Shown here one piece after another: positions 6,201 through 27,008 of a DNA stretch of 35,998 bases. Source of the stretch: Caldilineales bacterium. Lineage in GTDB: Bacteria; Chloroflexota; Anaerolineae; JAAEKA01. The notes under the pieces are model-generated. The model was given only the letters and a program-made list of their open reading frames with translations, made no database searches and was not told the origin of the DNA. A program made the position numbers and the translations under genes. The stretch spans positions 1 through 35,998 of the forward strand of contig JANWYQ010000225.1 of assembly GCA_025055015.1 (NCBI GenBank). The letters run 5' to 3'. How positions within the stretch are numbered: position 1 is the stretch's first letter; each line of letters opens with the position of its first letter.

Positions 6201-7371
6201 TGACGCGTTTCTGGAGAGCCTGTTCACGTCCCTTACCGAGGTCTTTGCCCGCCGCGGCGTGCTGATCTATCCCAGCCTGGCCACCTACGACAAAACCGAC
6301 CAGACTCTGGTGACCTACCACACCCGCTTCTATCCGACAGACGTTCGCCCAAACCGCGTCTCCATTTACAGCCGTGGTATCATGGCCTGGGTGGCGCGTG
6401 AGCGCAAGCCGTATCAGGCGCGGGATGTTCGAGAGGACCAAAACTACAACCTGCTTCTCCCAGACACACTATCTGAGATCGCCGTGCCTGTGTTCTACGG
6501 CGACGAGCTCTTGGCAGTTTTGGACCTGGAAAGCCCGGTGCTGGACGCCTTTGGCGCAACGGATATTGCGCTCCTGGAGGCGCTGAGCAATCATATTGCC
6601 GTCACCCTCCACAACGTCCAGCAGTATGCCGAGCTGAAGAGGACAAAGGGTTTGGCGGGAGCAAGAACAGCCGTGGCCTGGATGGGCATGGTGAGCAGCG
6701 ACTGGATGCATCGGGTGCGGGGTGACGCGGTGGTGATCCGGGATGTGGTGGGTCTCCTGCAACAGGAGCTGCAACCGGTAAGCCCGCAGGTGCGGGAGTG
6801 GTTCGATCGCATCCAGCGGCGCCTAGCGTCCATTCTGGAAGCACCGATCAGTCCGCCGCTGCAACCGGATCAAGATGTCTTCCCCGTGGACATCGGCGTG
6901 TTCGTCCAGGAAGCGCTGCAACGGCTTCAGCGTCGAGACCGCTACAGCCCTATAGCCTTTGAGCTCGACATCCGCTTACCGGAAGGTGTGCTGGTCCGGG
7001 CCGATCCCCACTGGTTGCAGCGCGTGTTGGAAATCCTCGTGGACAACGCCGCCAAGGCCGTGGCCAAGACTCCCGTGAAGCGCATAGGAGTGTCTGTCTA
7101 CAGCCCCTCTACGTCCGTTGTGAAGGGTGGCGTGGTGAACATAGCGGTGGAGGACACCGGACCCGGCATTCCCGATGAAATCAGCGCCGTGTTGTTCAAA
7201 GAGCCCGTGAGGAAATCTCCTGGGTCCGGCGGCGCAGGGCTTGGCCTGTTGATGGCGCAGACGATCGTTCAAACCTACGGGGGCGACATTTACTTGGAAC
7301 ACACCAGCGCCGCCGGTACCCGAATGGTGTTCTGGCTGCCCATCGAAAACCACAAGGAGCGGGAGCCGTGA
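3214..7371 (+). CDS. REC-(GAF)x6 histidine kinase
   Basis: Soluble kinase of 1385 residues. An intact N-terminal receiver lies at 6-120 (D12-D13, phospho-acceptor D59, T88, K109 in IEKPF). About six successive GAF-type small-molecule-sensing modules follow, near 130-290, 292-462, 465-630, 635-805, 808-975 and 978-1140. Each ends in a helical joint such as AAAIENAQ or AAAVRNTQ. The C-terminal kinase has a divergent phospho-acceptor segment (H1166 in DWMHRVRG), N1278 in the N-box, D1314 in EDTGPGIP and a glycine box GGAGLGL. The start is ATG 3214, which overlaps the preceding stop (ATGA) and follows AGGAGG. A longer frame from 3019 only shadows the upstream gene. It is probably translated together with its neighbours as a multi-input relay. 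Exact GAF boundaries are approximate and ligands are unknown. Confidence 0.88.
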   Translation: MIAESLRVLLVDDERSLRQPLAEYLKTQCGFHVDDAADGQEALAKVEANGGRYDVALIDNLLLPEPDGVEVMRRIKARYPEIECIIFTGWGTAERQRALREGAFRYIEKPFDNEELALLIRVAAQQVRLRSISRSILSTHDPGQVLQHILAATRSLTQADEVFVTLQSEASGDLRTFALDHESGALSPAASNGSLLSENLVREVLAAGKTVNIGELPADAAWAEAAWLAGFRSVVGVPIPGPRGNLGALWALRRRSDHLAPGGSVALLQTLAGQAGLAIVNARTFEQTQAQASYMEALVRASRQLTAAGNEEHQLEIAWRFVHQEMGVSTFLVALYDQSTGVLRFPLAYDEGQRVVIPATKVGEDATAWTITALVVKTGEEFYWPTPEHQAETCRAYNIRPRAIGRPCQSCFYFPLKHGDQIIGAVSIQAYRTHAFTSAQLDACRALGNQLAAALANSRLVSATRKLATDLEKLQRLSTAIASSLDLKEVMTRTCQAAVEFFQADHSGLVLFDEDLCWGTTAAEYPPDLGTVGQRIPLEGIPDEERLVHGGEPLVVEDVANEVDLGPVRNILYDQYGIQSILIVPIISKGKRLGSFSLDAIQQRRRFTDQELELCRMFAAQVAAAIENAQRAEELERMRRAAEALAQTAAPADTLAKITHWAAETLRAASVVIWPYDNVRRKFIPDELTAVGISDEDLQRLRESEPAPGQTTEYVLERGYVAVADASDPQHTFIGQSTRNTLRRLGVRSFQAVALRLGEERLGVLYVNYRFRRVFASDDETTLKTFASHAALALKSARLLTQLERTKRAASVVAGAVVQQDLRLTLAEIANNTREVLNADVVTVYAYDESKGRFTDEGISIVDQRRPNSIRTADELLPASTPYRILEISGPPYYRLADDLAKQDPILGGKFTEVEEVRASVGIQLRANDRRVGVMFVNFRQPHRFTDDMIATVQLFADQAAAAVRNTQLYNQTAHLLERLELVTRISRQAASNLEIDAFLESLFTSLTEVFARRGVLIYPSLATYDKTDQTLVTYHTRFYPTDVRPNRVSIYSRGIMAWVARERKPYQARDVREDQNYNLLLPDTLSEIAVPVFYGDELLAVLDLESPVLDAFGATDIALLEALSNHIAVTLHNVQQYAELKRTKGLAGARTAVAWMGMVSSDWMHRVRGDAVVIRDVVGLLQQELQPVSPQVREWFDRIQRRLASILEAPISPPLQPDQDVFPVDIGVFVQEALQRLQRRDRYSPIAFELDIRLPEGVLVRADPHWLQRVLEILVDNAAKAVAKTPVKRIGVSVYSPSTSVVKGGVVNIAVEDTGPGIPDEISAVLFKEPVRKSPGSGGAGLGLLMAQTIVQTYGGDIYLEHTSAAGTRMVFWLPIENHKEREP

Positions 7372-7751
7372 CCCACCGTGTGCTTTTGGTCAGCAACGCC
7401 GGAACCAACCGGTGGGGAAGACTGGTGCAAGAGGTCCTGAAAGAGATGGACGCCCTGTTGATCACAGCCAGGAACGGACAGCTTCAGCAGCAAGTGCAGG
7501 AGGGCTTCTCAGCTGTGATTGTAGATGCCAGCTCCTTTGGCCTCGGCAGGGAGAACGACGTGGTCACGATGATTCGAGCTTTGCGCGCTCGCTCAGCCCT
7601 AATCCCTATCGTGGTAGTCACCAGCTCTCTGTCGTGGGAGGTGGCGAGAGAGTACCTGCGCGCTGGCGCCAGCGACTACATCCCACAGACGTTCGACCGA
7701 GAAAAGCTGGCCCGTCGTCTGTCCGCGGCCCTCCACTTGAGTGCGCCTTGA
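7368..7751 (+). CDS. Degenerate stand-alone receiver-domain protein
   Basis: This is a single CheY-like domain of 127 residues. The alternating beta/alpha pattern and D53 (VIVDAS), T85 (VVVTSS) and the segment A-S-D-Y-I-P fit a receiver. However, the Mg-binding acidic pair is replaced by S9-N10 and the conserved Lys by Q107. It may therefore be a pseudo-receiver that signals without normal phosphorylation. The GTG start at 7368 overlaps the upstream TGA (GTGA) and is preceded by AAGGAG, so it is translationally coupled to the six-GAF kinase. It has no output domain. It could act as a partner or phosphate sink for the two kinases; that role is inference. Confidence 0.82.
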   Translation: MTHRVLLVSNAGTNRWGRLVQEVLKEMDALLITARNGQLQQQVQEGFSAVIVDASSFGLGRENDVVTMIRALRARSALIPIVVVTSSLSWEVAREYLRAGASDYIPQTFDREKLARRLSAALHLSAP

Positions 7752-7769
7752 GCGCCAAGGAGCCAGTCC

Positions 7770-9725
7770 ATGTCCCACAAAGCCAGGGTGGTCTTGCTGG
7801 CCGACAACACTCTCGACTTTCTAGCCACTCGCGCCGAGTACCTTGAGCGAGCAGGGTACAAGGTCCTGCGGGCGAGCTCGGTTGCTGAAGCTAGAAACCT
7901 ATTGGAGACTCGCTGGGTCCATGTCGCTATCCTGGACATTCGGCTAGTGGACGACAACGATCAGGAGGACCAATCCGGCATTGCGCTGGCGGCAGAGCCA
8001 GCGTTCCGCCATATCCCGAAGATCATGCTCACCGCGTTTCCTCATTGGGAGTACGTGCGCCGGACGATGGCTGCCATCCCCCCTGATCCGCCCGCAGCGG
8101 TTAACTTCCTCGACAAGCGGGAGTCCCCGGCGAAGATGCTTGACGCAGTTGCCCAGTTGTTCTCCGCCCATCTGCAGATCAACTGGGATTTGGCTATCCA
8201 TCGCAGCAGTCGCTGTAACTGGAGATTGTTAAGCCTGGCTGAAACTCTCAGCCAAAGCGAGGACGCGGAAGCGCTACAGGACTCAGCCCAGGAGCTGGAG
8301 GACCTCCTGCGTCGCCTGTTCTGCCGTAGCGAAGAGATCACGCTGGATCAGTTGCTCTGGCAGAAGGGCGAACGAGCGGCGTTTATCGTGTTTGCCCACG
8401 CTGAAGGCCATCCCACCCGTCTATATCTGGTCACCTGCGGCGCTCGCCACAGCGCTCGGCGCGAGCATGAGACCGTCCGCCGGCTAAGCGCTGCAGCTGC
8501 CAGTCACGGCGTTCCGACCTGGGTGGAGTACCATGAGACCCTCCACTTCGGCGCCAATCGTTACGAGTTGAAGGACGCTTCCCTGGAAACGGCCAAGCCC
8601 TTTGCTCACTTTTTCATCGCTGCATCTAGCCGAGAGGTGGGCGCAGCGGTGGATCGCCTGGCCCAGCACTGCCTAAGGCCCTGGCACCAACAGCCCAGGA
8701 TCGTTGTCACCTCTCCGCGCGTCCTTCACCTGTTTGGGACAGAGAACAGGCTTGCCTGGCTGGAGGCCCGATTGCAGGACCTCGGTCGCGAGATGGCCGA
8801 GGCCGGCATCGGCGAGCTGATCCGAGATGGAACCCACATGGCGCTCCAGCTCGCCCGGGGTCAGCGCCATCAGTTCCCCGATCCTGTGATCTGGCTCTCT
8901 GGGCAGGTCTCCAAGCATGACCAGGTTTCGCTGCCCCACGCTCTAGCGCTGAACTCGTTAAGCGTGGATACAATCCTAGTGGACGGCGCCGGGCATCCGT
9001 GGCTAACAGACTTCGGCGCCGTCGCCGAGGGGCCGGTGTGGGGTGACTATGCGGCCTTAGAGACCGCCTTCAAGTTCGACCTGCTCGACAGTGCAACCTC
9101 CTTGGAGGACATCTGCGAGATGGAGGAAGTGCTGCTGTCGGCAGAGCGACTGAACCAGCGGCTTTCGCCTCCGATGAACAAGGTCGCCAAGGTGGTATCG
9201 GCGGTGCAACATGTGCGTCAGCGGGCCTCAGAGGCTTGGCGCCCCGAGATGGCGCCCTATTTATGGGAGCTACTGTATTGCAGCGTGGAGCGATTACGAG
9301 CTTCCACAACCGCAGCCAGACGCCCTCCGTCCGAGCTGGTGCCGTTGGTTCACACCGTCTTGAATCTTGGGATGCTGTGCGACCGGCTAAACGTATGGGC
9401 GTTGCCACCATCCTCGGCGGCCGGCCTAACGCTGGACCCAGAGCGTCGCAGCGCACGCGTAGATGGCCGTCCTGTCAGCTTGACCCCTAGCGAATACAAG
9501 CTCTTTGAATACCTTTGGCGCAACGCTGGTAAGGTGTGCTCGCGCACGGAGTTAGAACAGCTCCTTTATGGAAGGCCTGAGCAGGCCAGCGGCAGCGACA
9601 ACCTCAACATGACTATCAACCGCTTGCGGCAGAAAATTGAACCCGATCCGGCGCGCCCGCAATATCTGAAGAACGTACGCGGACAGGGATACATTCTCTG
9701 GCCACACGGAGAACCGAGACCGTAG
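7770..9725 (+). CDS. REC-(APH-like middle)-winged-helix regulator
   Basis: Response-regulator-like protein of 651 residues. The N-terminal receiver (about 5-130) keeps D12, phospho-acceptor D56 (AILDIRL), T88 and K116. The C-terminus (about 555-647) is an OmpR/PhoB-type winged helix (LTPSEYKLFEYL, then NMTINRLRQKIEP and a VRGQGYIL wing), so it should bind DNA. The roughly 420-residue middle is unusual. Near 403-430 it reads like the catalytic end of an aminoglycoside-phosphotransferase/kinase fold (ILVDGAGHPWLTDFGAV, then GDYAALE), but the expected H-G-D-L motif is replaced by A-L-N-S-L-S. This recalls the APH-like 'TCAD9' domains described in bacterial conflict-type ternary systems; that match is from memory. 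The start is ATG 7770 with AAGGAG 8 nt upstream. It lies 18 bp after the pseudo-receiver and closes the operon. Confidence 0.85.
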   Translation: MSHKARVVLLADNTLDFLATRAEYLERAGYKVLRASSVAEARNLLETRWVHVAILDIRLVDDNDQEDQSGIALAAEPAFRHIPKIMLTAFPHWEYVRRTMAAIPPDPPAAVNFLDKRESPAKMLDAVAQLFSAHLQINWDLAIHRSSRCNWRLLSLAETLSQSEDAEALQDSAQELEDLLRRLFCRSEEITLDQLLWQKGERAAFIVFAHAEGHPTRLYLVTCGARHSARREHETVRRLSAAAASHGVPTWVEYHETLHFGANRYELKDASLETAKPFAHFFIAASSREVGAAVDRLAQHCLRPWHQQPRIVVTSPRVLHLFGTENRLAWLEARLQDLGREMAEAGIGELIRDGTHMALQLARGQRHQFPDPVIWLSGQVSKHDQVSLPHALALNSLSVDTILVDGAGHPWLTDFGAVAEGPVWGDYAALETAFKFDLLDSATSLEDICEMEEVLLSAERLNQRLSPPMNKVAKVVSAVQHVRQRASEAWRPEMAPYLWELLYCSVERLRASTTAARRPPSELVPLVHTVLNLGMLCDRLNVWALPPSSAAGLTLDPERRSARVDGRPVSLTPSEYKLFEYLWRNAGKVCSRTELEQLLYGRPEQASGSDNLNMTINRLRQKIEPDPARPQYLKNVRGQGYILWPHGEPRP

Positions 9726-10006
9726 GAACGCTAGGTCCCTCGACGCCGGACCCTGCTCCCAGGGGATAAGCCGAAACCAGATGGCGCCCTTAGCCTCAAC
9801 AAGGGGGAGCCTTCATAACAGCCTCAACAGTTAGCGCCCAATTGTGGCCGTCCCGTGAGTTTCGCGATAGTGAACTGAAAGCTACAGGAGCCGCACTTGC
9901 CCGTACCATTCAAGTAGCTGCCGAACCATGGCCTGCGCCGGGCCCGGCGACGTGCAGCGACTGACAATCCTTACGGCAGGGCTTTTCGGCAGCCAGGAGG
10001 TCGGCC
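9726..10006. other. Intergenic region with no recognised gene
   Basis: This stretch follows the signalling operon. I see no convincing ORF, no intrinsic terminator with a T-tract and no strong promoter. The last 12 bases hold the Shine-Dalgarno (AGGAGG, 9995-10000) of the small membrane protein that follows. Confidence 0.5.
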
Positions 10007-10207
10007 GTGATTAGCCTGGCCATCGAGCAAGTGCTCGCTTTAACCTTTGGGGCGATCTGCATCGGAGCCTGTGCGGTTTTTATGGCACTGGTGTGGATCT
10101 CGTCGAAAATCAGTGGCGATAGGAGCGAAACCCTCGCAGGAGTCCTGTTGGCATTCCCCCTTCTGATGCTTGGTTTGTACCTGATCGGCAAGGCTCTATT
10201 GCGTTGA
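10007..10207 (+). CDS. Small two-helix membrane protein
   Basis: Sixty-six residues with two hydrophobic helices (about 3-30, from AIEQVLALTFGAICIG, and about 42-62, from LAGVLLAFPLLMLGLYLI) separated by a short polar loop (SSKISGDRSE). The GTG start at 10007 is supported by a full AGGAGG six bases upstream. No family is recognised. The protein is the last plus-strand gene before the minus-strand photolyase cluster and is not obviously part of any operon. A longer minus-strand frame crosses the same bases but has shadow composition, so the plus-strand reading is preferred. A chance ORF cannot be excluded. Confidence 0.5.
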   Translation: MISLAIEQVLALTFGAICIGACAVFMALVWISSKISGDRSETLAGVLLAFPLLMLGLYLIGKALLR

Positions 10208-10283
10208 TGCATTGGTCTGACCACTCCGCCCCCCGCCACCCACCTGCCGCAGACGTCACAGGTCTCCCACGTTTTCGCCGCCC

Positions 10284-10904
10284 TCAACCGACCAGCAGGC
10301 GAGCCTCCGGCCATGCGCCGCTGCGCTGCCGGGCTAGCGCCTCCTCCCAGGTCAGCGCAGCCTCTTGGATGCCCAGCGCGGCCAACAGGGCAAAGTGGAA
10401 GTCCAGGGGGTGCTGATCGGCCGGCCGCGGCACGACTGCCCTTGCGTCGGCCAACGCGGCGAACAAATCCGCCGCGGTCGGCTCGTTCACGAGGGTCTCC
10501 CCCGCCAAGGCCAGGCCGGCCACGTGCTCGTTCCCGCGGAAGTAGTGCACGTCCATCCCCTCCCCGGCGTAGATGCGATAGCCAACCACCCAGGTGTCCA
10601 GGCTGCGGGCTAGGTCGGACGCCAGTCGGTTGAAGCCCACCGACATGGCCAGGTCGGGCTCCACGTAGACCGACGTCCAGTCGCCCTGGGGCGCCATGAC
10701 CGCCGCCGGCGCAGCGGGCGCAGCTCCGGCCAGGTAGGTGCGCCGCAGGGCCGGCTCCAGCCGATCTGGGGCCACCCGGTAGAAGTGGACGTTGAAGTAG
10801 CTGGCGTAGGGCGTCCGCGGCGGCTGCCAGGCGATGGCCTCCTGGGGGGAGACCGGCTCCATCGGGGATCGTGCTTTCTTTCGTTGGAAGAGTCGCTTCA
10901 GCAT
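10284..10904 (-). CDS. Hypothetical protein, 206 residues
   Basis: No family is recognised. The protein is soluble, with a basic N-terminus (MLKRLFQRKKAR) and a mixed alpha/beta body (segments such as DWTSVYVEPDLAMSVGF, WVVGYRIYAGEG, VHYFRGNEHVAGLAL) followed by a helical C-terminus (HFALLAALGIQEAALTWEEAL). No catalytic motif, Cys cluster or membrane helix is evident. The start is ATG 10904 with AAAGGAGA ideally placed upstream, which makes the coding call solid despite the unknown function. It lies 86 bp downstream of the DUF2256 gene on the same strand, with a hairpin in the gap, so co-transcription with the photolyase set is possible but not certain. Confidence 0.8.
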   Translation of the reverse strand: MLKRLFQRKKARSPMEPVSPQEAIAWQPPRTPYASYFNVHFYRVAPDRLEPALRRTYLAGAAPAAPAAVMAPQGDWTSVYVEPDLAMSVGFNRLASDLARSLDTWVVGYRIYAGEGMDVHYFRGNEHVAGLALAGETLVNEPTAADLFAALADARAVVPRPADQHPLDFHFALLAALGIQEAALTWEEALARQRSGAWPEARLLVG

Positions 10905-10951
10905 GGAAGTCTCCTTTCTGACCGACAGGGGTCGGACAAGCGGCGGGCCTA

Positions 10952-10973
10952 CTCAGGCGACGCTCGGCCTGAG
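10952..10973 (-). terminator. Hairpin between the DUF2256 gene and the 206-residue gene
   Basis: CTCAGGC at 10952-10958 and GCCTGAG at 10967-10973 form a perfect 7-bp stem with an 8-nt loop, just downstream of the DUF2256 stop. There is no T-tract on the minus strand, so termination is only a possibility. Confidence 0.25.
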
Positions 10974-10990
10974 GGGGCCGGGTGTGCGCG

Positions 10991-11155
10991 CTACGTTTTA
11001 CGAGCTGCGCCCACCTCGCCTCGCCGCCGCCGACACCGCTCGCTGCAGTAGACCACCTGGTCCCACTGCCGCGCCCACCGCTTGCGCCAGGCGAAGGGCC
11101 GGCCACACACGGGGCACACCTTGGTCGGCAGGTCTCGCTTCTTCCGTCCACGCAT
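10991..11155 (-). CDS. DUF2256 zinc-ribbon protein
   Basis: A 54-residue basic protein with two Cys pairs: [10 protein letters not shown] near residues 12-21 and V-Y-C-S-E-R-C-R near 35-42. The tryptophans of W-R-K-R-W and Q-W-D-Q lie between them. This is the hallmark of DUF2256, a small probable zinc-binding family. As I recall, DUF2256 genes commonly sit beside cryptochrome/photolyase genes, and here the gene follows an Fe-S photolyase by 67 bp on the same strand. The start is ATG 11155 and the stop is TAG at 10991-10993. A different frame over the same DNA (10998-11198) and a 418-residue frame (9910-11166) are shadows. Its biochemical role is unknown; assistance with the photolyase or its cofactors is inference. 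Confidence 0.85.
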
Positions 11156-11174
11156 GGTCGAGGCATCCTAACGC

Positions 11175-11228
11175 GATCACCGACCGCTCATCAGCCACCG
11201 ATCACCGGTTACAGGCCACTGATCACCG
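11175..11228. repeat. Three GATCACCG direct repeats
   Basis: GATCACCG occurs at 11175-11182, 11200-11207 and 11221-11228, interspersed with related CATCAG/CATCGG words, in the gap between the Fe-S photolyase and DUF2256 genes. The last copy overlaps the photolyase stop. It looks like a degenerate intergenic repeat with no coding content. Confidence 0.5.
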
Positions 11229-12752
11229 ATCATCGGCCTCCGGCCCCAAGAACGCCGCCGCCTGCTCCCGCACGCGCGCCCGCTCTGCCTCGTCCAGGTG
11301 GCGCAGGCCGAGCACGGCGTTGCCCAGCCGCGGGTTGCGGCGCAGGGTCTCCTCGTGCTCCAGCAAGAAGTTCCAGTAGAGGAAGTTGAAGGGACAGGCG
11401 TCGGCGCCGACGCGAGCCTTGGGATCGTAGCGACAGCCTGCGCAGTAGTCGCTCATGCGGTGGATGTAGTTGGCCGACGCCGCGTAGGGCTTGGTGGCCG
11501 TGCGGCCGCCGTCGGCGTTCAGCCCCATGCCCAGCACGTTGGGCAGCATCACCCACTCGTAGGCGTCCACGTACGTGGCCAGGAACCAGCGGTTGACCTG
11601 CAGCGGCTCGACCCCGGCCAGCAGGCAGAAGTTGCAGATCAGCATCAGCCGCTCGATGTGGTGGGTGTAGCCGGTGTGCAGGGCGCGGCGGATCGCCGTC
11701 TGCAGGCAGGCTAGGTCGGTGTCGCCAGTCCAGAAGAAGTCGGGCAGCGCCCGCTGCGCGCGCCAAGCGTTGAAGCCCTGCCAACGATCTGCCAGCCGCC
11801 AATACTGCCAGTAGATGTACTCCCGCCAGCCGATCACCTGGCGCACGAAGCCCTCGACGGAGTTGAGGGGGGCCTGGCCGGCGCGATAGGCCCGTTCAGC
11901 TGCCTGGGCCAGCGCCAACGGCTCCAACAGGCCGATGTTCAGGTAGGGCGAGAGCAAGGAGTGGAAGAGCAGCGGATGGCGGCTGCTCATGGCGTCCTCG
12001 TAGGGCCCGAAGTTAGCCAGGCGATGGGCTAGGAAGTCCTGAAAGGCCGCCTCAGCCTGCCCTCGGGTCACGGCCAGGTCAAAGCCGTCTACCGTCCCTG
12101 TGCCGGGCATGGCCGCTACCTCGGCCATCACCTGGCGGGTGATCACGTCGGGCGGGTAGCTGGGCGGGGGCGGCGGCCGGAGGCCCTTGGGCAGCGGCTT
12201 GCGGTTCTCCGCGTCGAAGTTCCAGCGGCCGCCCACCGGCTGGTCGCCGTCCATCAACAGGCGGAAGTGGCGCCGCATCGCCCGATAAAAGGTCTCCAGC
12301 ACCACCCGCTGGTCGGGCCCTGCGTTGGGGAAGGGGTCGAACCGGCCCACTAGGAACTGGGTGTTGGGCAACACCCGCACGGGGAGGCCCAGCTGCTCGG
12401 CCAGCTTCCCGTGCTGCCAGCGCCGGCCGGCCACCTCGCTGGCCGCCATGGTCCACAGGGCGGCCGGCTGGTGCTGGGCCACGTGGGCCTGTAGGCCGGC
12501 CCGCGTCGTCTCCGCCCGCACGTAGTCCACCTGCCAGCCCTGGCTGCGCAAATCCTCGGCATAGTGGCGCATGGCGCTGAACAGCAGCACCAGCTTCTTG
12601 CGTTGGTAGGGCAGACGCCGGCTGCGCGCGGCGCTCTCCACCAGGACGACGCGCACGTTGTCTCGCCCAACGGCCTGCTCGGCCGCGGCCAGCGCCGGAT
12701 GGTGGGCCAGGAGCTGGTCGCCGAGGATCCAGACGGAGAGAGGGGGTGCCAT
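11223..12752 (-). CDS. Fe-S cluster cryptochrome/(6-4) photolyase family protein
   Basis: A 509-residue protein of the FeS-BCP class (prototype Agrobacterium PhrB, a light-dependent (6-4) photoproduct repair enzyme; Rhodobacter CryB is a relative). It begins LSVWILGDQLL. It shows the FAD-domain motifs NSVEGFVRQVIGWREYI, THHIERLM, DAYEWVMLPNVLGMG and TKPYAASANYIHRMSDY. Four cysteines match the 4Fe-4S ligands of PhrB: one in TDLAC, two in DYCAGC and one in ADACPF. The start is taken as ATG 12752, since the conserved N-terminus begins there. TTG 12785 and ATG 12779 are in-frame alternatives, and none has a strong Shine-Dalgarno. It forms a minus-strand group with DUF2256. Repair versus photoreceptor function cannot be settled from sequence. 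Confidence 0.93.
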   Translation of the reverse strand: MAPPLSVWILGDQLLAHHPALAAAEQAVGRDNVRVVLVESAARSRRLPYQRKKLVLLFSAMRHYAEDLRSQGWQVDYVRAETTRAGLQAHVAQHQPAALWTMAASEVAGRRWQHGKLAEQLGLPVRVLPNTQFLVGRFDPFPNAGPDQRVVLETFYRAMRRHFRLLMDGDQPVGGRWNFDAENRKPLPKGLRPPPPPSYPPDVITRQVMAEVAAMPGTGTVDGFDLAVTRGQAEAAFQDFLAHRLANFGPYEDAMSSRHPLLFHSLLSPYLNIGLLEPLALAQAAERAYRAGQAPLNSVEGFVRQVIGWREYIYWQYWRLADRWQGFNAWRAQRALPDFFWTGDTDLACLQTAIRRALHTGYTHHIERLMLICNFCLLAGVEPLQVNRWFLATYVDAYEWVMLPNVLGMGLNADGGRTATKPYAASANYIHRMSDYCAGCRYDPKARVGADACPFNFLYWNFLLEHEETLRRNPRLGNAVLGLRHLDEAERARVREQAAAFLGPEADDR

Positions 12753-20270: not shown

Positions 20271-20553
20271 ATGTTCAAGCACATTTTGGACAAGATTCGC
20301 GACAGGGTCCGACGTCGTCCATATGTCATGACCGTCCACGCAGAAGAAGAGATGAACGATGACCGGTTGAGCATCTTCGACGTCGAACGGAGCTTGCTCA
20401 CGGGTGAAATTGTCGAGCGTCAGAAGGACCTGTCAAGCGGCGAGTGGAAGTTATTTAGTCAGGCGCCAGACGGTTGCCGGCGATGAGATGGTCGCAGTAG
20501 TCAAGCTCAGTCCGATGGGCAAACTGGTGGTCATCACGGTGTATCGTTTATGA
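20271..20553 (+). pseudogene. DUF4258 protein, frameshifted (putative toxin of a TA pair)
   Basis: The first frame (20271-20486) begins MFKHILDKIRDRVRRRPYVM and contains VHAEEEMNDDRLSIFDVERS and GEIVERQKD, typical of the N-terminal part of DUF4258 (mRNA-interferase-like RelE-type fold suspected). It then derails after GEWK. Removing one T in the TT at 20451-20452 restores the expected C-terminus: YLVRRQTVAGDEMVAVVKLS, then GKLVVITVYRL, ending TGA at 20551-20553. The repaired protein is 93 residues and its stop overlaps the next start (ATGA), as expected for an intact pair. Either the gene is a recent pseudogene, or the T is a sequencing/assembly error, or it shifts frame in a programmed way. 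The downstream zinc-finger gene remains intact. Confidence 0.8.
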
Positions 20554-20792
20554 GCGTGAGTCCTATGATTTGTGATGTTTGCGGCAAGGATGGCGCGCGC
20601 GTTCGGCAGGTCACCCGTAGCTATGGCGAGGGTGAAAACCTACTCATCATCGAGAATATTCCTCTCGTCACGTGCCCGAATTGCGGCGCAAGCTATTTTA
20701 CCGCAGAGACCTTGCACGAAATCGAGCGTATCAAGCTGCATCGTCACAGTTTTGCGCGGAAGCAGCTGGTGGCGATTGCAGAGTTTGTATGA
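20550..20792 (+). CDS. YgiT-type zinc-finger protein (putative antitoxin)
   Basis: An 80-residue protein with two CxxC knuckles (ICDVCGKD and VTCPNCGASYF) followed by a helix ETLHEIERI. This is the N-terminal zinc-binding module of YgiT/MqsA antitoxins. The C-terminal helix-turn-helix of full MqsA is absent, as in the short forms that accompany DUF4258 proteins. The start is ATG 20550, overlapping by four bases the stop of the repaired DUF4258 frame, which supports their being one operon. It would neutralise the DUF4258 partner, which is known family context and not tested here. With the partner broken, it may be an orphan antitoxin. Confidence 0.85.
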   Translation: MSVSPMICDVCGKDGARVRQVTRSYGEGENLLIIENIPLVTCPNCGASYFTAETLHEIERIKLHRHSFARKQLVAIAEFV

Positions 20793-20929
20793 GCAGAGGC
20801 AACCGCCTAACGCCTTCGGTTTTGCGCGCGCAGTGAATAGAGTGCCTCTTGCGCGCCCAGTCGCTCCTTAATAGCCCCGAGCTGCCCGCAGGCCGTAGGT
20901 CTTGCAGCCAGCTCAGCCATACATCGTTG

Positions 20930-21065
20930 GCCGTCAGTGGTGCCCGTTGGCCCGGATGCCAGGGCTGAACTACGGTTCAGGCGAAGCCGGTGAAAGTCCG
21001 GCGCTGTCGCGCAACTGTAACTCGGACGCACGAGCCGAGAAGCCAGGACGACCGCCACTGCACGT
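20930..21065 (+). promoter_or_regulatory. Cobalamin (adenosylcobalamin) riboswitch aptamer
   Basis: The conserved core is clear: GAAGCCGGTGAAAGTCCGGC (from 20983), then GCTGTCGCGCAACTGTAA (to 21020) and the B12-box-like AGCCAGGACGACC (21041-21053). The closing P1 stem pairs CAGTGG (20935-20940) with CCACTG (21055-21060). An internal hairpin CTCGG/CCGAG (21021-21039) precedes the B12 box. Such RNAs bind adenosylcobalamin and lower expression of B12 synthesis or uptake genes. An intrinsic terminator lies about 100 nt downstream and the three-gene uptake locus follows, so repression is probably transcriptional. I could not pick a convincing promoter upstream (20793-20930). Confidence 0.93.
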
Positions 21066-21158
21066 CCGCCACACCCTTCGACGGAAAGGAGAGCGGAAAC
21101 TTGCCATGATCACCAGGTATTGGCCGGCCTGCGAGCTGGTCAGCCCAGGAAGTGCGAC

Positions 21159-21194
21159 AAAAGCGTCCGACGTTCATCCGTCGGGCGCTTTTTT
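21159..21194 (+). terminator. Intrinsic terminator of the riboswitch expression platform
   Basis: AAAAGCGTCCGACG (21159-21172), loop TTCATC and CGTCGGGCGCTTTT (21179-21192) pair over 14 positions with one G-U, running into six T (21189-21194). An upstream aptamer segment TCGGACGC (21022-21029) is perfectly complementary to GCGTCCGA in its left arm (21163-21170), offering an antiterminator. Confidence 0.88.
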
Positions 21195-21336
21195 GTCTCC
21201 TGGTGAGTCGGCAGGCATCGCGGTAGAACCCACCGTCCCGTAACCTGTTCTGCCCCCGACCTGTTCAACGACCGCCTGGCCGCTGCTTGCGCAGCGGTCC
21301 AGGGCTTTTGACCACTCGTAGCTACCGGAGGAAAGG
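21195..21336 (+). other. Leader between the riboswitch terminator and the first uptake gene
   Basis: This is non-coding leader of the B12-controlled transcript. It ends in GGAGGAAAGG, a strong Shine-Dalgarno for the ATG at 21337. I see no further element in it. Confidence 0.5.
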
Positions 21337-23568
21337 ATGAACCCGACAACCATTCGCGCCCTGCGCAGCGTCGGCCGACTGCTGTTGGCCCTGGCGCTGC
21401 TGATCTCCACCTTGGTCGCCGCCGCGCCGACCCAGGCGCATCTCGCCGCGCCCAGCGACGATCCCCACTACGCCGACATCGTGGTGGACCTGGGCGACGG
21501 CCGCGTGATCACCCGCCGCGTCACCTTCAGCACTCCCACCATCACGGGCTTGGAGGCGCTGCAGCGCTCCGGCCTGAACCTGGAAGTCGCTACCTACAGC
21601 TTCGGCTCGGCCATCTGCGCCATCGAGGGCGTGGGCTGCCCGGCCACCAACTGCTTCTGCGACGCCAGTCGCTTCTGGAGCTATCACTTCTGGAACAACG
21701 GCTGGCAGATGTACATGGTGGGCGCCAGCAGCTCCACCCTGTCCAGCGGCGCGGTGGAGGGCTGGGCCTGGGGAGCCGGCGACCCGCCCCCACCGATCAC
21801 CGCCGAGAGCCTGGCCGCCGAGGCTACGCTGCAGTGGCTGCGCGGCCAGCAGGCGGCCGATGGCAGCTTCGGCAACAGCGCAGGCGCCACGGTGGACGTC
21901 CTGCTGTCCGTCGTGGCCGCCGGTCAGAACCCCTGGCTGTGGCGCAGCGGGCAGAACCGGTCGCTGCTGGACTGGCTGTTTGCCAACGGCCCCGCCTACG
22001 CTAACAACAGCGCCGCGGCGGCCGGCAAGCTCGCCGTGGGTCTCGTGGCGGCCGGCGTTGATCCTCGCACCTTTGGCGGCATGAACCTGGTGGCGAAGAT
22101 CAACGCGTACTACACCCCGGCGACGGGCGCGTTCGGCACCACCGTGCAAGACCAGGCGTGGGCCATGCTGGGGCTGGCGGCTGCCGCCGAGCCGGTGCCG
22201 CCGGCTGCGGTGGCGCGGCTGACCTCCCTGGCCAACGCGGACGGCGGCTGGGGCTGGACCGCGGGCATGAGCAGCGACGTGGACAGCACCGCCGTGGCCA
22301 TCCAGGCGCTGATCGCGGCCGGCGAGCCGCCCACGTCCTCCGCCGTGGCCGGCGGGCTCGCCTACCTGCGCAGCGCCCAGCTCACCAACGCTGACGGCGG
22401 CTTCCCGGCCTCGCCCGCCCAGCCCTGGGGCACGCGCAGCAACACCAACTCCACGGCCTACGCCGTGCAAGCCATCCTGGCGGTCGGCCAGGACCCCCTG
22501 AGCGCGGCGTGGGCGATCACGGCCACCCATCCCATCAGCTACCTGCTGGGCCAGCAGCTCCCCAGCGGCGCGTTTGTCTACCAGGACCCGCCGGCCAACC
22601 TCTTTGCCACGCAGCAGGCTGTGCCGGCGCTGGTGGGCAAGCCCTTCCCCCTGCCCGGCCGAGGGGTCGCCCAGCGCCAGGCCCTGCGCTGGATCGCAGC
22701 CCAGCAGCAGGCCGACGGCAGCTTCGCCGGCTTCAACCCCGGCGCTACCGTTGACGCCGTGCTCGCCATCGCCGCCACGGGCCGCGACCCCCGCAGCTTC
22801 GTCGTCAACGGCAACAGCCCCATGGACTACCTGGCCACCGTGGCTAACACCTACGCCAACGCCAGCGCAGCTGCGGCCGGCAAGCTCACCGCAGGCGTGG
22901 TAGCGGGCCGGGGCAATCCCCGCAGCTTCGGCGGCGTGGACCTGGTGGCCAAGCTGATCGGCTACTACGACGCCAGCAGCGGCAAGTTCGGCGGCGGCTC
23001 CACCTGGGACCAGTCGTGGGCCATGCTGGGCCTGGCGGCCGCGGGCGAGGCCGTGCCGCCGGCCGCCGTGACCTACTTGACCAGCATCCAGGCCGCAGGC
23101 GGCGGCTGGGGTTTCAGCGCCAACGCCGGCGCAGCCGACGTGGACAGCACCAGCCTGGCCCTGCAGGCCTTGGCGGCCGTCAAGGTCGGCCGCAACCATC
23201 CTGCGGTGGCCGCGGGCCTGGCCTTCCTGCGCAGCCAGCAGAACGAGGACGGCGGCTTCCCCGGCTTCCTCGGCACCACCGATCCCGCCTCCACCGGTCT
23301 GGCGCTGCAGGCCCTGGCCGCGTTCCACGAGGACCCGCGCAGCCTGCGCTGGCGCACTTTCGTGGCCGACGGCTCCAGCTCCCGCCTGACGGCCCACAAC
23401 CCCCTGGAGGCGCTGATGGCCCTGCAGACCGACGCCGGCGGCTTCCCCGGCTTCTCCGGCCCCAACGACCCGTTCAGCACCTACCAGGCGGTGCCCGGCT
23501 TGAGCGGCAAGCCTTTCCCGCTGCGGCCGCCCAGCCAGCGCATCTTCCCGCTAGTGTTCAAGGACTGA
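21337..23568 (+). CDS. Secreted DUF4430 + double alpha/alpha-barrel protein, transcobalamin-like
   Basis: A 743-residue exported protein. The signal peptide is 1-34 (hydrophobic LLLALALLISTLVAAA, cleavage near TQA). A DUF4430 beta-domain lies at about 46-149, with C94, C101, C106 and C108 in an AICAIEGVGC-PATNC-FC insert and FWNNGWQMYM. Two tandem copies of a prenyltransferase/squalene-oxidase-repeat alpha/alpha barrel follow (about 155-439 and 444-729). Each has QxxDGSF, DQAWAMLGLAA or DQSWAMLGLAA, DVDST, DGGFP, and ends QAVPxLxGKPFPL 290 residues apart. The last residues IFPLVFKD resemble the C-terminal motif of Chloroflexi surface proteins. No terpene-cyclase DxDD acid motif was found. Alpha-barrel plus DUF4430 is the architecture of animal intrinsic factor, here in reverse order. 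With the riboswitch upstream, capture of cobalamin outside the cell is the best inference. The start has GGAGGAAAGG. Confidence 0.87.
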   Translation: MNPTTIRALRSVGRLLLALALLISTLVAAAPTQAHLAAPSDDPHYADIVVDLGDGRVITRRVTFSTPTITGLEALQRSGLNLEVATYSFGSAICAIEGVGCPATNCFCDASRFWSYHFWNNGWQMYMVGASSSTLSSGAVEGWAWGAGDPPPPITAESLAAEATLQWLRGQQAADGSFGNSAGATVDVLLSVVAAGQNPWLWRSGQNRSLLDWLFANGPAYANNSAAAAGKLAVGLVAAGVDPRTFGGMNLVAKINAYYTPATGAFGTTVQDQAWAMLGLAAAAEPVPPAAVARLTSLANADGGWGWTAGMSSDVDSTAVAIQALIAAGEPPTSSAVAGGLAYLRSAQLTNADGGFPASPAQPWGTRSNTNSTAYAVQAILAVGQDPLSAAWAITATHPISYLLGQQLPSGAFVYQDPPANLFATQQAVPALVGKPFPLPGRGVAQRQALRWIAAQQQADGSFAGFNPGATVDAVLAIAATGRDPRSFVVNGNSPMDYLATVANTYANASAAAAGKLTAGVVAGRGNPRSFGGVDLVAKLIGYYDASSGKFGGGSTWDQSWAMLGLAAAGEAVPPAAVTYLTSIQAAGGGWGFSANAGAADVDSTSLALQALAAVKVGRNHPAVAAGLAFLRSQQNEDGGFPGFLGTTDPASTGLALQALAAFHEDPRSLRWRTFVADGSSSRLTAHNPLEALMALQTDAGGFPGFSGPNDPFSTYQAVPGLSGKPFPLRPPSQRIFPLVFKD

Positions 23569-23579
23569 GGCGGCTTGCG

Positions 23580-23602
23580 CCTCCCTGGTAGGTGCAGGGA
23601 GG
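23580..23602 (+). repeat. Intercistronic hairpin between the two DUF4430 genes
   Basis: CCTCCCTG (23580-23587), a 7-nt loop and CAGGGAGG (23595-23602) form a perfect 8-bp stem 11 bp after the first gene. No T-tract follows. It may stabilise or attenuate the polycistronic message. Confidence 0.45.
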
Positions 23603-23665
23603 TCTGGCCACGCATTCCACGGTTTGGACCAACGTTACGTAAGATTGGCCAGCGCGACGGTGCTC

Positions 23666-25816
23666 ATGTCTGGATGGCGTAGTCTCCGGCTTCGCGACAG
23701 CCGTCCTCTGCTCAGCAGAGGACGGGCTGTCGCGCGGGCGGGCGCCGTTGCGCTGGCCTCCCTGGTGGCCCTGGCCGGGGGAACGCTGACCCCGGCGCCG
23801 GCCGTGGCGCAGGAGGGCCAGCCCTCGCGCGCCGGGCTGGTGGTGGACTTCGGCAACGGCACGGTGATCACCCGCTGCGTGGACCTGGGCCCCAGCGGCC
23901 AAGCCACCGGCGAGCAGCTGCTGCGCGCTGCGGGCCTAAGCCTCACCGCCGAGTATAGCGCCATGGGCGCGGCCATCTGCAGCATCGAGGGGGTGGGATG
24001 CAACTACCCCATGCAGCCCTGCTGGTGCCAGTGCACCAGCTCCCCCTGCGTCTACTGGATCTACTACTACCTGGCGAACGGCCAGTGGGTGTACTCCAAC
24101 CTGGGCGCCAGCAGTCGCATCGTGCGCGCTGGCGACGTGGACGGGTGGGTGTGGGGCGCCGGCACCTCCAACCAAGGCGCGCTGCCGCCGGTGCGCACCT
24201 TTGCCGAGATCTGCGCGGCGCCGACGCCCACGCCCACCCCAACGGCCACGGCCACCCCCACACCGCTCCCCACCGACACGCCCACCCCGTCGCCCACGGC
24301 CACCTGGACCCCCACCGCTACGGGGACGGCCACGCCGGCGGCCGGGTTGTCGCCGGCGCCGCCCACCGCCACCCCCGTGCCCTCGCCCACAGCGATTGCG
24401 TCACCCGCCGCGCCGACCGCCACCCCCACGGCCACCCCAACCACTACCCCGCCGTCCCTTGGGACCCCAGGAGGGCCCCTCCCGCCGCCCGCGCCTGAGC
24501 CGCCGGCGGCCATGGAGGTGCCCGCAGCCCCAGACAACGGCGCAGGTCGCCGTGCGTTCTTGCCGCTGCTGGAGCACGGCCGCGTTGCCGTCTCGTCGGC
24601 GACCGCCGCAGACGTCCTCGGGTGGCAGCCCAGCGCCATGTCAACGTCCACCCCGGTACTCGCCCCTGTCGCAGCGCCATCCCCCGCCCGCGTAGCCCTG
24701 GCGAACCTGCGGCAGCCCCTGAGCCGGGAGGAGGTTGCGGCCGCGCTGGCAGCCCGCGCGCCGCGCAACGCAGTCCCGACCGGCGGAGGCGGCGCCCAGG
24801 CGTGGAGCCCCAGCGCTGCTGCGGTCACGCGTGCCACCTGGGACCCGCTGTTCGCGACGGCTATGGCTGCCGCCTTTAGCCTAGGCCTGGCCGCCGCACG
24901 GCGGGTGCACCGCCGCAGCGCGTCCCTGGACGACCGTCGGCTCGCGGCTGCGGCCGGGCCACGCGCCCGACCAGGCCAGGAGCACCGCAGGCTGCCCCTC
25001 AGCAGCGGGGTGATCTACGGGCTCTGCCTGGCTCTGGGCCTCATTGCCCTCCTCTATCCCTTCCTGCAGGCCACCTCGCCCGCATCGCCCAGCATGGGCC
25101 AGGCGCGGGCGGCCGACGCGCCGCTGCTGATGGCGGTGCTGGTCGGGCTGATCTTCCTGGTGATGCTGGCCGAGGTACAGGAACAGGCTGTCAGCGCCAA
25201 GACCATGGCCCTGCTGGGGGTGCTGGTGGCCATCAACTCTGCGCTGCGCTTCATCGAGGTGGCCATCCCCGGCCCCGGCGGCTTCACGCCCATCTGGGTG
25301 CTGATCGTGCTGGCCGGCTACGTCTATGGCCCGCGCTTCGGCTTCCTGATGGGCGCGCTGACCCTGGCCGTGTCTGCGGTGATCACCGGCGGCGTGGGAC
25401 CGTGGCTGCCTGCGCAGATGTTCACCGCCGGCTGGATGGGCCTCAGCGCGCCGCTGGCGCGGCCGCTGGTCCGCGCGATGGGCGGAGAGGGTAGCCCGCG
25501 CCGCGAGGTGTGGGCGCTGGCGGCCTTTGCCGGCCTGTGGGGGTTGATCTACGGCGTGATCATCAACCTGTGGTTCTGGCCCTTCATGGCGGGGCCTCCG
25601 GACCAGTACTACCAAGCGGGGCTAGCCCTGGGCGAGGTGGTGCGGCGCTATGCCACCTTCTACGCCCTGACCTCCTTGGTGTGGGACAGCATGGCCGTGG
25701 CGGGCAACGTGGCCCTGACCCTGGCCTTCGGCGCGTCCGTCCTGAGCGCGCTGCGGCGCTTCCAGCAGCGCTTCGAGTTTCAGTATCGGCCATGGACGGC
25801 CCAGGCGACCCCGTGA
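23666..25816 (+). CDS. DUF4430 domain fused to an ECF transporter S component
   Basis: A 716-residue protein. The N-terminal signal (to about 49, AVAQ) exports a DUF4430 domain (about 56-166). That domain has the same AICSIEGVGC motif as the previous gene, a denser Cys cluster (C105, C112, C119, C121, C123, C128) and YYYLANGQWVY. A Thr/Pro linker (about 186-265) leads to RRAFLPLLEHG (295-305) and a probable membrane anchor (about 394-412). Residues 446-700 form a polytopic S component with LVLIVLAGYVYGPRFGF-like and ITGGVGPWLPAQMFTAGWMG segments, typical of vitamin-binding ECF S proteins. Predicted role: surface capture plus membrane delivery of cobalamin or a precursor. ATG 23666 is chosen; TTG 23624 and GTG 23660 are alternatives and no Shine-Dalgarno is clear. 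EcfT follows with overlap. Confidence 0.87.
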   Translation: MSGWRSLRLRDSRPLLSRGRAVARAGAVALASLVALAGGTLTPAPAVAQEGQPSRAGLVVDFGNGTVITRCVDLGPSGQATGEQLLRAAGLSLTAEYSAMGAAICSIEGVGCNYPMQPCWCQCTSSPCVYWIYYYLANGQWVYSNLGASSRIVRAGDVDGWVWGAGTSNQGALPPVRTFAEICAAPTPTPTPTATATPTPLPTDTPTPSPTATWTPTATGTATPAAGLSPAPPTATPVPSPTAIASPAAPTATPTATPTTTPPSLGTPGGPLPPPAPEPPAAMEVPAAPDNGAGRRAFLPLLEHGRVAVSSATAADVLGWQPSAMSTSTPVLAPVAAPSPARVALANLRQPLSREEVAAALAARAPRNAVPTGGGGAQAWSPSAAAVTRATWDPLFATAMAAAFSLGLAAARRVHRRSASLDDRRLAAAAGPRARPGQEHRRLPLSSGVIYGLCLALGLIALLYPFLQATSPASPSMGQARAADAPLLMAVLVGLIFLVMLAEVQEQAVSAKTMALLGVLVAINSALRFIEVAIPGPGGFTPIWVLIVLAGYVYGPRFGFLMGALTLAVSAVITGGVGPWLPAQMFTAGWMGLSAPLARPLVRAMGGEGSPRREVWALAAFAGLWGLIYGVIINLWFWPFMAGPPDQYYQAGLALGEVVRRYATFYALTSLVWDSMAVAGNVALTLAFGASVLSALRRFQQRFEFQYRPWTAQATP
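23693..23734. repeat. Large palindrome inside the signal-peptide coding region
   Basis: The arm 23693-23712 (CGCGACAGCCGTCCTCTGCT) and the arm 23714-23734 are inverted copies differing only by one extra G, giving a 20-bp stem. It encodes D-S-R-P-L-L-S-R-G-R of the signal peptide n-region. It looks like an inserted REP-like element and could fold in the mRNA near the start codon. Confidence 0.7.
24221..24460 (+). repeat. Low-complexity Thr/Pro linker coding repeat
   Basis: This encodes residues about 186-265 of the DUF4430-S-component fusion, an irregular run of T-P and T-A-T-P units (DNA words CCCACG, GCCACC). It is an extended spacer that would lift the DUF4430 domain away from the membrane through the cell envelope. 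Confidence 0.8.
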
Positions 25817-26883
25817 GACCCTTGGCCACAGGGCCGGCCGACGACCGTCCGCCGCTACACCCGCTGGCGTGGTTGGTGTGGCTGGGCAGCGTGCTGGCGG
25901 CGCTCACTGCCACCCGCAACCCGGTCTACCTGGCCCTGGCGCTGGGGTGCATCGGCCTGGCGCATAGCCAGGCCCGCCGCCGCGCCTACGCGCCCCCGCC
26001 CCCCCTCTCTCCTCTGCGCTTCGGCCTGGTGGTGGTGCCCCTGGGCGCTCTGTTGAACGCGCTCTCCACCCACTACGGCGAGACGGTGGTGCTGACCTTT
26101 CCCCGTTGGCTGCCGCTGATCGGGGGACCGATCACCCTCGAGGCGCTGGTCTACGGCGGCTTGAACGGCCTGGTGCTCACCGGCCTGTTCGCCGCCTTCA
26201 CAGCCCTCTACCTGGGGCTGTCGGTGCAGGCGCTGGTGCGACTGATCCCTCGCGCGTTCTACCCCGTGGCGGTGGTGCTGTCCATTGCGCTGGCCTACGT
26301 GCCCACCACCTTCGCGCAGCTCCAACAGATCCGCGAGGCGCAGACCATGCGCGGGTACCGGCCGCGCGGGCTGCGAGACGCCCTGCCCCTGGTGATGCCG
26401 CTGCTGGTAAGCGGCCTGGAGAACGCCCTCCACCTGGCCGAGGCCATGACCGCGCGCGGCTTCGGCAGCGCAGCAGCCCCGCGGCCCCGGCTGGCGCGGC
26501 CGCTACAGGCGGCGGGCCTCGTCGGCGTGGTGAGCGCTTTGATCCTCCGCCTGGCCGGCCAGCAGTCGCCCGCCGTTGCTCTGTTGCTGGCAGGCGGCGC
26601 AGTGTTGGTGGCTGTGGGCCTGTGGCTGCAGGGACGCAGCTTTCGGCGCACGGTGTATCGGCCGCAGCCGGTGACCCCGCGCGACCTTCTGGTGGCGATG
26701 GCGGCCGCAGCCACCGCCGTCTTCTACCTGGCCCCCACGGCCGCCCGCGTTTCCCTGGCCTACACCCCCTACCCTCGCCTATCGCCGCCCCCGGTAGACT
26801 GGGCAGCAGCGCTGGCCACCCTGGGGCTCGTTGCGCCGGGGCTGGCTCTGGCGGTCTTCTCCCGTCGCCAATCCGCCGCCTAA
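25813..26883 (+). CDS. ecfT: ECF transporter T component (CbiQ/EcfT family)
   Basis: A 356-residue membrane protein that couples ECF ATPases to the S component. It has about six to eight hydrophobic segments. It carries the two characteristic A-R-G-type coupling motifs: T-M-R-G-Y-R-P-R-G near 178-186 and A-M-T-A-R-G-F-G near 211-218. The start is uncertain. GTG 25813 overlaps the upstream stop as GTGA, favouring translational coupling; ATG 25792 would overlap by 25 bp, and neither has a Shine-Dalgarno. No gene for the ATPase subunits (EcfA/A') follows, so they must be encoded elsewhere, as in group II ECF systems that share a module. The 3' end is duplicated in the downstream 91-bp tandem repeat. 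Confidence 0.9.
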   Translation: MRPLATGPADDRPPLHPLAWLVWLGSVLAALTATRNPVYLALALGCIGLAHSQARRRAYAPPPPLSPLRFGLVVVPLGALLNALSTHYGETVVLTFPRWLPLIGGPITLEALVYGGLNGLVLTGLFAAFTALYLGLSVQALVRLIPRAFYPVAVVLSIALAYVPTTFAQLQQIREAQTMRGYRPRGLRDALPLVMPLLVSGLENALHLAEAMTARGFGSAAAPRPRLARPLQAAGLVGVVSALILRLAGQQSPAVALLLAGGAVLVAVGLWLQGRSFRRTVYRPQPVTPRDLLVAMAAAATAVFYLAPTAARVSLAYTPYPRLSPPPVDWAAALATLGLVAPGLALAVFSRRQSAA

Positions 26884-26888
26884 AAGTT

Positions 26889-26917
26889 GTAAGGCAACTC
26901 CTGTGGAGTTGCCTTAC
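26889..26917. terminator. Palindromic bidirectional terminator, copy 1
   Basis: GTAAGGCAACTCC (26889-26901), loop TGT and GGAGTTGCCTTAC (26905-26917) make a perfect 13-bp stem six bases after the ecfT stop. It lies between convergent genes, so it could end transcription from both sides, though T-tracts are weak. Confidence 0.6.
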
Positions 26918-26979
26918 TCGGTTGCGCCGGGGCTGGCTATAGCGGTCTTCTCCCGTCGCCAATCCGCCGCCTAAACGCT

Positions 26980-27008
26980 GTAAGGCAACTCCTGCGGAGT
27001 TGCCTTAC
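26980..27008. terminator. Palindromic bidirectional terminator, copy 2
   Basis: The same 13-bp stem as the first copy (26980-26992 with 26996-27008) has loop TGC instead of TGT. It ends eight bases before the stop codon of the convergent 181-residue gene. Confidence 0.6.

Follow-up and report, generated by a model that had tools for sequence, protein, structure and literature searches.

A cobalamin riboswitch-linked operon for transcobalamin-like proteins and a CbrT-like ECF transporter in a Chloroflexota bacterium: a predicted corrinoid scavenging system

In the genome of a Caldilineales bacterium (Chloroflexota), a cobalamin riboswitch precedes genes for an exported-type protein with a beta-domain and two alpha/alpha barrels, a second beta-domain fused to a transporter component, and a subunit of an energy-coupling factor (ECF) importer. 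The window, meaning the whole stretch of DNA analyzed (35,998 nucleotides), is the entire contig C58 of this 4.14-Mb genome, which is 92% complete. Three genes, here named P1, P2 and EcfT, run in one direction 3' of the riboswitch and a terminator-like hairpin, and the features of the locus are:

20921..21073, + strand: cobalamin riboswitch aptamer RF00174 (cmscan 51.7 bits, E=3.1e-10, full model 1-189)
21160..21195, + strand: terminator-like hairpin and U run (21150-21205 folds at -27.1 kcal/mol, z=-5.3 relative to 200 shuffled sequences)
21337..23568, + strand: P1, 743 aa, hydrophobic signal-like segment at the N-terminus followed by a beta-domain and two alpha/alpha barrels (open reading frame (ORF), AlphaFold2 model)
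21457..21792, + strand: P1 beta-grasp-like (transcobalamin-C-like) domain, residues ~41-152 (iterated hidden Markov model (HMM), alignment A1, model strands and one short helix)
21802..22635, + strand: P1 alpha/alpha barrel 1, residues ~156-433 (model helices, Pfam toroid matches)
22654..23541, + strand: P1 alpha/alpha barrel 2, residues ~440-735 (model helices, Pfam toroid matches)
23624..25816, + strand: P2, beta-domain, Pro/Thr/Ala linker, transmembrane part and ECF S component in a single polypeptide (ORF)
23822..24166, + strand: beta-domain of P2, with 42% identity to the P1 beta-domain (alignment; SCO2322_fam match under cut-off)
24212..24868, + strand: P2 linker, 219 residues with 51 Ala, 45 Pro and 35 Thr (composition count)
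25121..25813, + strand: ECF S component, CbrT-like (PF12822 E=1.9e-10; family profile A2)
25792..26883, + strand: EcfT, CbiQ family (PF02361 E=3.5e-11; 25-nt overlap with the P2 end)

The riboswitch match covers the full RF00174 model, exceeds the gathering score of 31.5 bits and is the only above-threshold Rfam match in the window. A first-pass annotation, made from the DNA letters alone, had claimed a cobalamin riboswitch ahead of these genes and named the covariance search as a check on it; this search bore it out. The hairpin, which was also found by a consensus scan, sits about 90 nt 3' of the RF00174 match and is the probable expression platform of the riboswitch. Its strength and the U run that follows make control by transcription termination likely.

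P1 proved to be the 743-residue exported-type protein with alpha/alpha barrels that had been described earlier: it is a single ORF, it matches the squalene-cyclase/prenyltransferase toroid families of Pfam, and its AlphaFold2 model, built on a 42-row alignment, contains two helical barrels (mean predicted local distance difference test (pLDDT) 91.8, predicted template modelling score (pTM) 0.86). In the modelled beta-domain, a helix (residues 71-77) is followed by two strands (82-87 and 90-96), an arrangement compatible with a hairpin. Against the NCBIfam model SCO2321_fam, P1 reaches E=1.7e-43 and 149 bits, compared with a cut-off of 300.

The P2 frame starts with a TTG at 23624, and an ATG is present at 23666. 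Its beta-domain is homologous to that of P1 (E=2e-25) and scores 24.6 bits (E=2.7e-5) against SCO2322_fam, for which the cut-off is 85. The first-pass annotation had expected two exported DUF4430 proteins next to an S and a T component; S and T stand, whereas the separate second protein does not, as the P2 beta-domain and S share one polypeptide. Such a fusion in one ORF is present in the window, L081 and L150 only, among 131 S loci examined (window included). The start of EcfT is most likely the ATG at 25792 rather than 25510. Searching PDB sequences with a profile of 27 S sequences (A2) gave 6fnp_A, from ECF-CbrT, as the best solved relative (E=3.1e-10), ahead of the folate S component 5d3m_C (E=4e-4).

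An ATPase matching this CbrT-like pair of S and EcfT is encoded off-operon: a fused EcfAA' at G000:C45:275-1885 in the same genome is 55% identical to that of an operonic relative (L101). It lies near a contig end, and no further ECF gene was evident by eye among the neighbouring ORFs listed. The relatives surveyed below mostly carry the fused EcfAA' in the same locus (26 of 27 beta-bearing loci of a first set and 39 of 51 of a second, where several contigs end early), in the order barrel-beta-S-T-AA' or barrel-beta-T-AA'-S.

We further looked into the need of the host for external B12. CbiC, a corrin-ring enzyme and the one synthesis gene searched, was not found in the 92% complete genome; it occurs in 1 of 28 beta-bearing genomes (this one included) versus 5 of the other 22. 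A FecCD/BtuC-type permease, present in 13 of 14 control genomes, was not found here either, so that P1, P2 and EcfT form the only putative B12 importer found in this genome, which encodes 11 B12-binding domains scoring over the cut-off. A second cobalamin riboswitch of the genome (C121:6270-6409; L179 6270-7227) lies ahead of a gene for a BtuF-like Peripla_BP_2 protein in which no signal peptide is evident, and another BtuF-like Peripla_BP_2 gene lies divergently at 5318-6136 of the same contig.

Next, we analyzed the relationship between these genes and B12 riboswitches using the S component as query, which is present in 50 of 201 Chloroflexota genomes, the own genome included. The first set comprised 50 S loci outside the window with their flanks, leaving out the short fragment G187:C15. 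Our own HMMs detected a beta-domain in 27 of the 50 and, among these, a barrel in 17. An RF00174 match lies upstream on the same strand in 26/27 beta-bearing loci, 0.5-6.6 kb from the S frame, compared with 2/23 loci without a beta-domain (L044 and L070; Fisher p=8e-11, uncorrected for kinship). The 26 linked loci span 11 families (f4, f5, f8, f9, f14, f21, f24, f27, f29, f49, f59).

The second set held the best 80 of 532 S loci from a scan of named genomes (L081-L160); most are from Chloroflexota, four are actinobacterial records (L133, L153, L156, L160) and one is from Acidobacteria (L144). Here, 51 of 80 loci carry a beta-domain, 46 of these together with a barrel. RF00174 was searched in 50 of the 80, each with 2 kb or more ahead of the S frame; this sample was chosen after the architecture was known and left out L107, L134 and L138, which already belong to the first set, as well as further loci with enough flank. 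A riboswitch lies upstream of the barrel/beta genes in 33/37 beta-bearing loci, each confirmed by cmscan of the locus, and in 1/13 loci without a beta-domain, namely L123, which carries a barrel. Two loci (L133, L143) have S on the opposite strand, and at L115 the higher-scoring model at the riboswitch site is RF01482 AdoCbl. For three of the four misses (L092, L097, L101) the contig edge falls inside the barrel gene, and in the fourth (L117) neither barrel nor riboswitch was found. The survey of relatives downstream of RF00174 proposed in the first-pass annotation thus revealed a tight linkage.

The family extends to Actinomycetota. NCBIfam relates the barrel to SCO2321_fam (NF053823) and the beta-domain to SCO2322_fam (NF040672), both under cut-off, and a scan of 50 genomes from the phylum of L133 (an Actinobacteria record) with SCO2322_fam gave matches in 10, one of them above cut-off. 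The nine loci fetched contain barrel and beta-domain in 9/9, T and AA' in 8/9 and S in 7/9 cases (L196 is cut), and seven of the nine show the arrangement barrel - beta - T - AA' - S. Of the 10 genomes, 7 have a co-directional RF00174 match upstream (4 above and 3 below the gathering score); the match is on another contig in G252, and none was found in G272. One actinomycetal locus (L199, 5418-7970) combines a riboswitch with two beta-domains and a barrel, and ECF parts were not detected in the 16 kb fetched.

A link by fold to the animal carriers comes from L099, an Anaerolineaceae record in which a single barrel is followed by a beta-domain in one chain, the order of the human proteins. Its AlphaFold2 model (417 residues, pLDDT 90.4, pTM 0.70) was compared by Foldseek with 350,542 PDB chains. 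Transcobalamin, haptocorrin and intrinsic factor account for all of the best 14 among 881 matches (E 1.3e-10 to 2.9e-8, 13-16% identity), and the next is a squalene-hopene cyclase at E=2.5e-7. The carrier alignments span 429-460 columns (gaps included), versus 281-373 for the other matches listed, all of them helical barrels; the barrel alone is therefore unlikely to explain them.

Altogether, we read the operon as a corrinoid scavenging system of this Chloroflexota bacterium, with cobalamin as the most likely cargo and B12 binding as a prediction, and assign this reading a probability of about 0.83. The RF00174 match, the fold matches of L099 and the riboswitch linkage support the bacterial transcobalamin-like capture coupled to ECF import that had been suggested at the outset. 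In this scheme, scarce B12 would let the riboswitch pass transcription beyond the terminator. Exported P1 would clamp B12 between alpha/alpha barrel and beta-grasp domain at the cell surface, in the manner its fold suggests for a transcobalamin-like protein. The P2 beta-domain, held on its long Pro/Thr linker to S, may receive or co-bind the vitamin and deliver it to the CbrT-like S component, and S, EcfT and the separately encoded fused EcfAA' would, by analogy with CbrT, move it into the cytoplasm. A more specific form of this hand-over is possible but tentative: a two-clamp relay, in which the surface carrier (barrel and first beta-domain) captures B12, and the tethered second beta-domain takes over one face and lowers the vitamin into S. 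If true, it would be a bacterial counterpart of the animal carrier-to-receptor hand-over, conserved over Chloroflexota and Actinomycetota, and the animal carriers could have arisen from an operon of this sort.

Several observations weigh against the scavenging reading. To begin with, the DUF4430 label of the first-pass annotation did not hold: Pfam DUF4430 (PF14478) has no match anywhere in the own genome and matches 1 of 31 members of the diverged beta-domain family, at E=0.1, and we rejected it as a family name. Compared with PDB sequences, the beta-domain profile found no B12 carrier and gave weak matches only, mostly to immunoglobulin-type chains. PF14478 matches 3 of 201 Chloroflexota genomes. 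In two of these, G057 and G138, EcfT, fused EcfAA' and a distant S component come after a true DUF4430 gene in the same orientation, and in G057 a barrel gene stands before it; neither genome has an RF00174 match. G063 has a sub-threshold RF00174 match (23.8 bits) about 240 nt upstream of its DUF4430 match, and the 18 kb fetched there contained nothing that our models recognised as barrel, S, T or ATPase. At L079 and L080, true DUF4430 genes occupy the operon position of the beta-domain. The true DUF4430 domain and the diverged beta-domain can thus stand in the same position, which is evidence from context without a sequence match. The diverged beta-domains of the window resemble DUF4430 solely in fold and gene context. 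Next to its DUF4430 protein, L080 encodes a barrel protein (5318-7987) whose extension comprises an MgtE_N-like region and a CARDB-like stretch and which terminates in a weakly dockerin-like part.

Further points on the same side concern the barrel and the linkage. The fold search with P1 itself listed terpene cyclases first, with squalene-hopene cyclase on top; transcobalamin appears at rank 19 (E=5.7e-5), and the first 18 PDB matches are not B12 carriers. The structural similarity to intrinsic factor and transcobalamin that the first-pass annotation anticipated is borne out by the relative L099; P1 itself has the reverse domain order and two barrels. Cobalamin_bind (PF01122), the family of the animal carriers, scores 14.4 bits on the P1 barrel (E=0.018) and 18.3 bits on the relative L112 (E=0.0013), both under the cut-off of 25. 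The root-mean-square deviation between L099 and the carriers is about 23-24 over both domains, which points to another relative placement of barrel and beta-domain in the L099 model; the closed clamp remains putative. Our HMMs detected no barrel in 10 of the 27 beta-bearing first-set loci, from families f27 and f49. L045, the sole first-set exception to the linkage, has barrel and beta-domains and no riboswitch match in its genome, and the actinomycetal genome with the best SCO2322 match (G273, 9.2 Mb) has five RF00174 matches, none near the SCO2322 gene. Finally, G088 is a beta-bearing genome with CbiC, and no EcfA was found beside S and T in the window.

Which corrinoid is carried is a separate matter. 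The cargo could be a precursor or another corrinoid (cobinamide, other cobamides) instead of cobalamin, which we consider rather unlikely. The solved S relative, 6FNP, is ECF-CbrT of Lactobacillus delbrueckii, whose S component binds cobalamin at 9 nM and cobinamide at 36 nM and which transports both, and CbrT, BtuF and the human carriers each accept several corrinoid forms (PMC5997447). In addition, the riboswitch senses the pool of finished coenzyme and not the cargo.

It is quite improbable that the operon has decayed in the own genome. The missing EcfA match beside S and T and an 88-nt tandem duplication at the ecfT end (26830-27008) would fit such decay. However, the ORFs of P1, P2 and EcfT are all open. 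Their order recurs in L081, which is the nearest relative found (its S is 71% identical) and likewise lacks an EcfA match in its 18 kb. The matching EcfAA' at G000:C45 also argues against decay, as an ATPase encoded elsewhere is the arrangement of shared-module ECF systems.

P1 might also be an exported enzyme with a terpene-cyclase/prenyltransferase fold and lie in a B12-regulated operon by chance. Its best sequence matches are squalene-hopene cyclase families, squalene cyclase models come behind SCO2321_fam in NCBIfam, and its fold search points the same way. The catalytic motif of type II terpene cyclases is DxDD. Only 2 of 69 barrel ORFs contain it, whereas the fourth residue is Ser/Thr in 32 of 59 DxDx[TSA] motifs. 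Moreover, the N-terminal hydrophobic signal-like segment would ill suit an enzyme acting on lipid diphosphates, fusions of barrel and beta-domain exist in either order, and the two-domain relative L099 prefers B12 carriers over cyclases. Taken together, a cyclase is very improbable. Import of cobalt or another metal for B12 synthesis, suggested by the match of EcfT to the Pfam cobalt transport protein CbiQ, is hardly credible, since S is an ECF_trnsprt/CbrT-type protein, no CbiC was found to use cobalt in a new corrin ring, and a large two-domain carrier fold seems implausible for a metal ion.

The general idea of the corrinoid scavenging system was already predicted in 2007. Burroughs et al. 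(2007; PMC1796856) described bacterial transcobalamin-like proteins of SLBB beta-grasp and alpha/alpha toroid domains beside CbiQ/CbiO as B12 scavengers, with fusions in either order, a second paralogous beta-protein and hosts usually without key B12 synthesis enzymes. Their clade is placed in low-GC Gram-positives, planctomycetes and, more rarely, euryarchaea, and the animal carriers were proposed to have been acquired from low-GC Gram-positives (PMC1796856). The strings 'Chloroflex' and 'riboswitch' are absent from the main text of that article. The window locus likewise has an exported-type beta-domain fused to toroids, a second beta-protein and CbiQ in a host without detected CbiC; the counterpart of CbiO, EcfAA', is off-operon here. 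It is thus a riboswitch-linked variant of that prediction. Compared with the 2007 clade, the family adds Chloroflexota and Actinomycetota, linkage to the riboswitch, a CbrT-like S component, the fusion of beta-domain and S, and domains too diverged for DUF4430. Beyond the prediction, the present locus contributes its riboswitch, an S component together with the fusion, a genome in which neither BtuC nor CbiC was found, and a clade invisible to the DUF4430 model.

Other known systems share parts of this architecture. Human intrinsic factor, transcobalamin and haptocorrin combine an alpha/alpha barrel and a beta-domain, in L099 in the same order; P1, unlike them, runs beta-barrel-barrel, has two barrels and is encoded beside a bacterial importer, and its ligand is predicted. 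ECF-CbrT has a related S component (E=3e-10) with EcfT and EcfA/A'. In contrast to the window, whose S has its own tethered beta-domain and belongs to a riboswitch operon, no extracellular carrier is described in the available parts of PMC5997447. SCO2321 and SCO2322 of NCBIfam are homologues of barrel and beta-domain, although the window proteins fall under the curated cut-offs, and the model names carry no function. By analogy only, the BtuG and DUF4465 surface B12 binders of Bacteroides also capture the vitamin ahead of an importer, which in their case lies in the outer membrane. The folds of these binders differ from the barrel and beta-domain.

The open-licence PMC literature, covered largely by titles and abstract beginnings, yielded no experimental paper on a bacterial transcobalamin-like B12 binder, and the sole occurrence of SCO2321 was in a paper on a skin-delivery peptide. 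The abstract of PMC5997447 calls knowledge of B12 uptake by auxotrophs scarce. B12 scavenging by bacteria without BtuCDF is thinly studied, and with this operon there is a concrete system of five parts that can be tested (barrel, beta-domain, S, T and AA'), found across many families of two phyla, in genomes mostly without CbiC. The operon gives the 2007 prediction a signature of regulation, an S component assigned to it and a set of gene families close to SCO2321/SCO2322, and it bears on the origin of the animal intrinsic factor family.

Some minor observations concern the surroundings of these loci. The 88-nt tandem duplication of the window (94% identical) spans the last ecfT codons and the palindrome behind them and occupies the site where relatives carry ecfAA'. 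On the 5' side of the riboswitch (20272-20792) lie two small ORFs that we take to resemble a DUF4258/MqsA-type toxin-antitoxin pair. Among the S-only loci of other Chloroflexota, which are uninformative on the substrate, L038 and L047 have a neighbouring gene presumably resembling a pseudouridine synthase. A possible additional riboswitch in the beta-less L127, considered by its coordinates, was discarded after cmscan found none there. In L119, a ZMP/ZTP riboswitch (928-1009, - strand) and the operon's cobalamin riboswitch are 4 kb apart, and in L045 a single frame of 1363 aa (8326-12414, + strand) matches ECF S, T and ATPase parts and adjoins the beta-domain and barrel genes.

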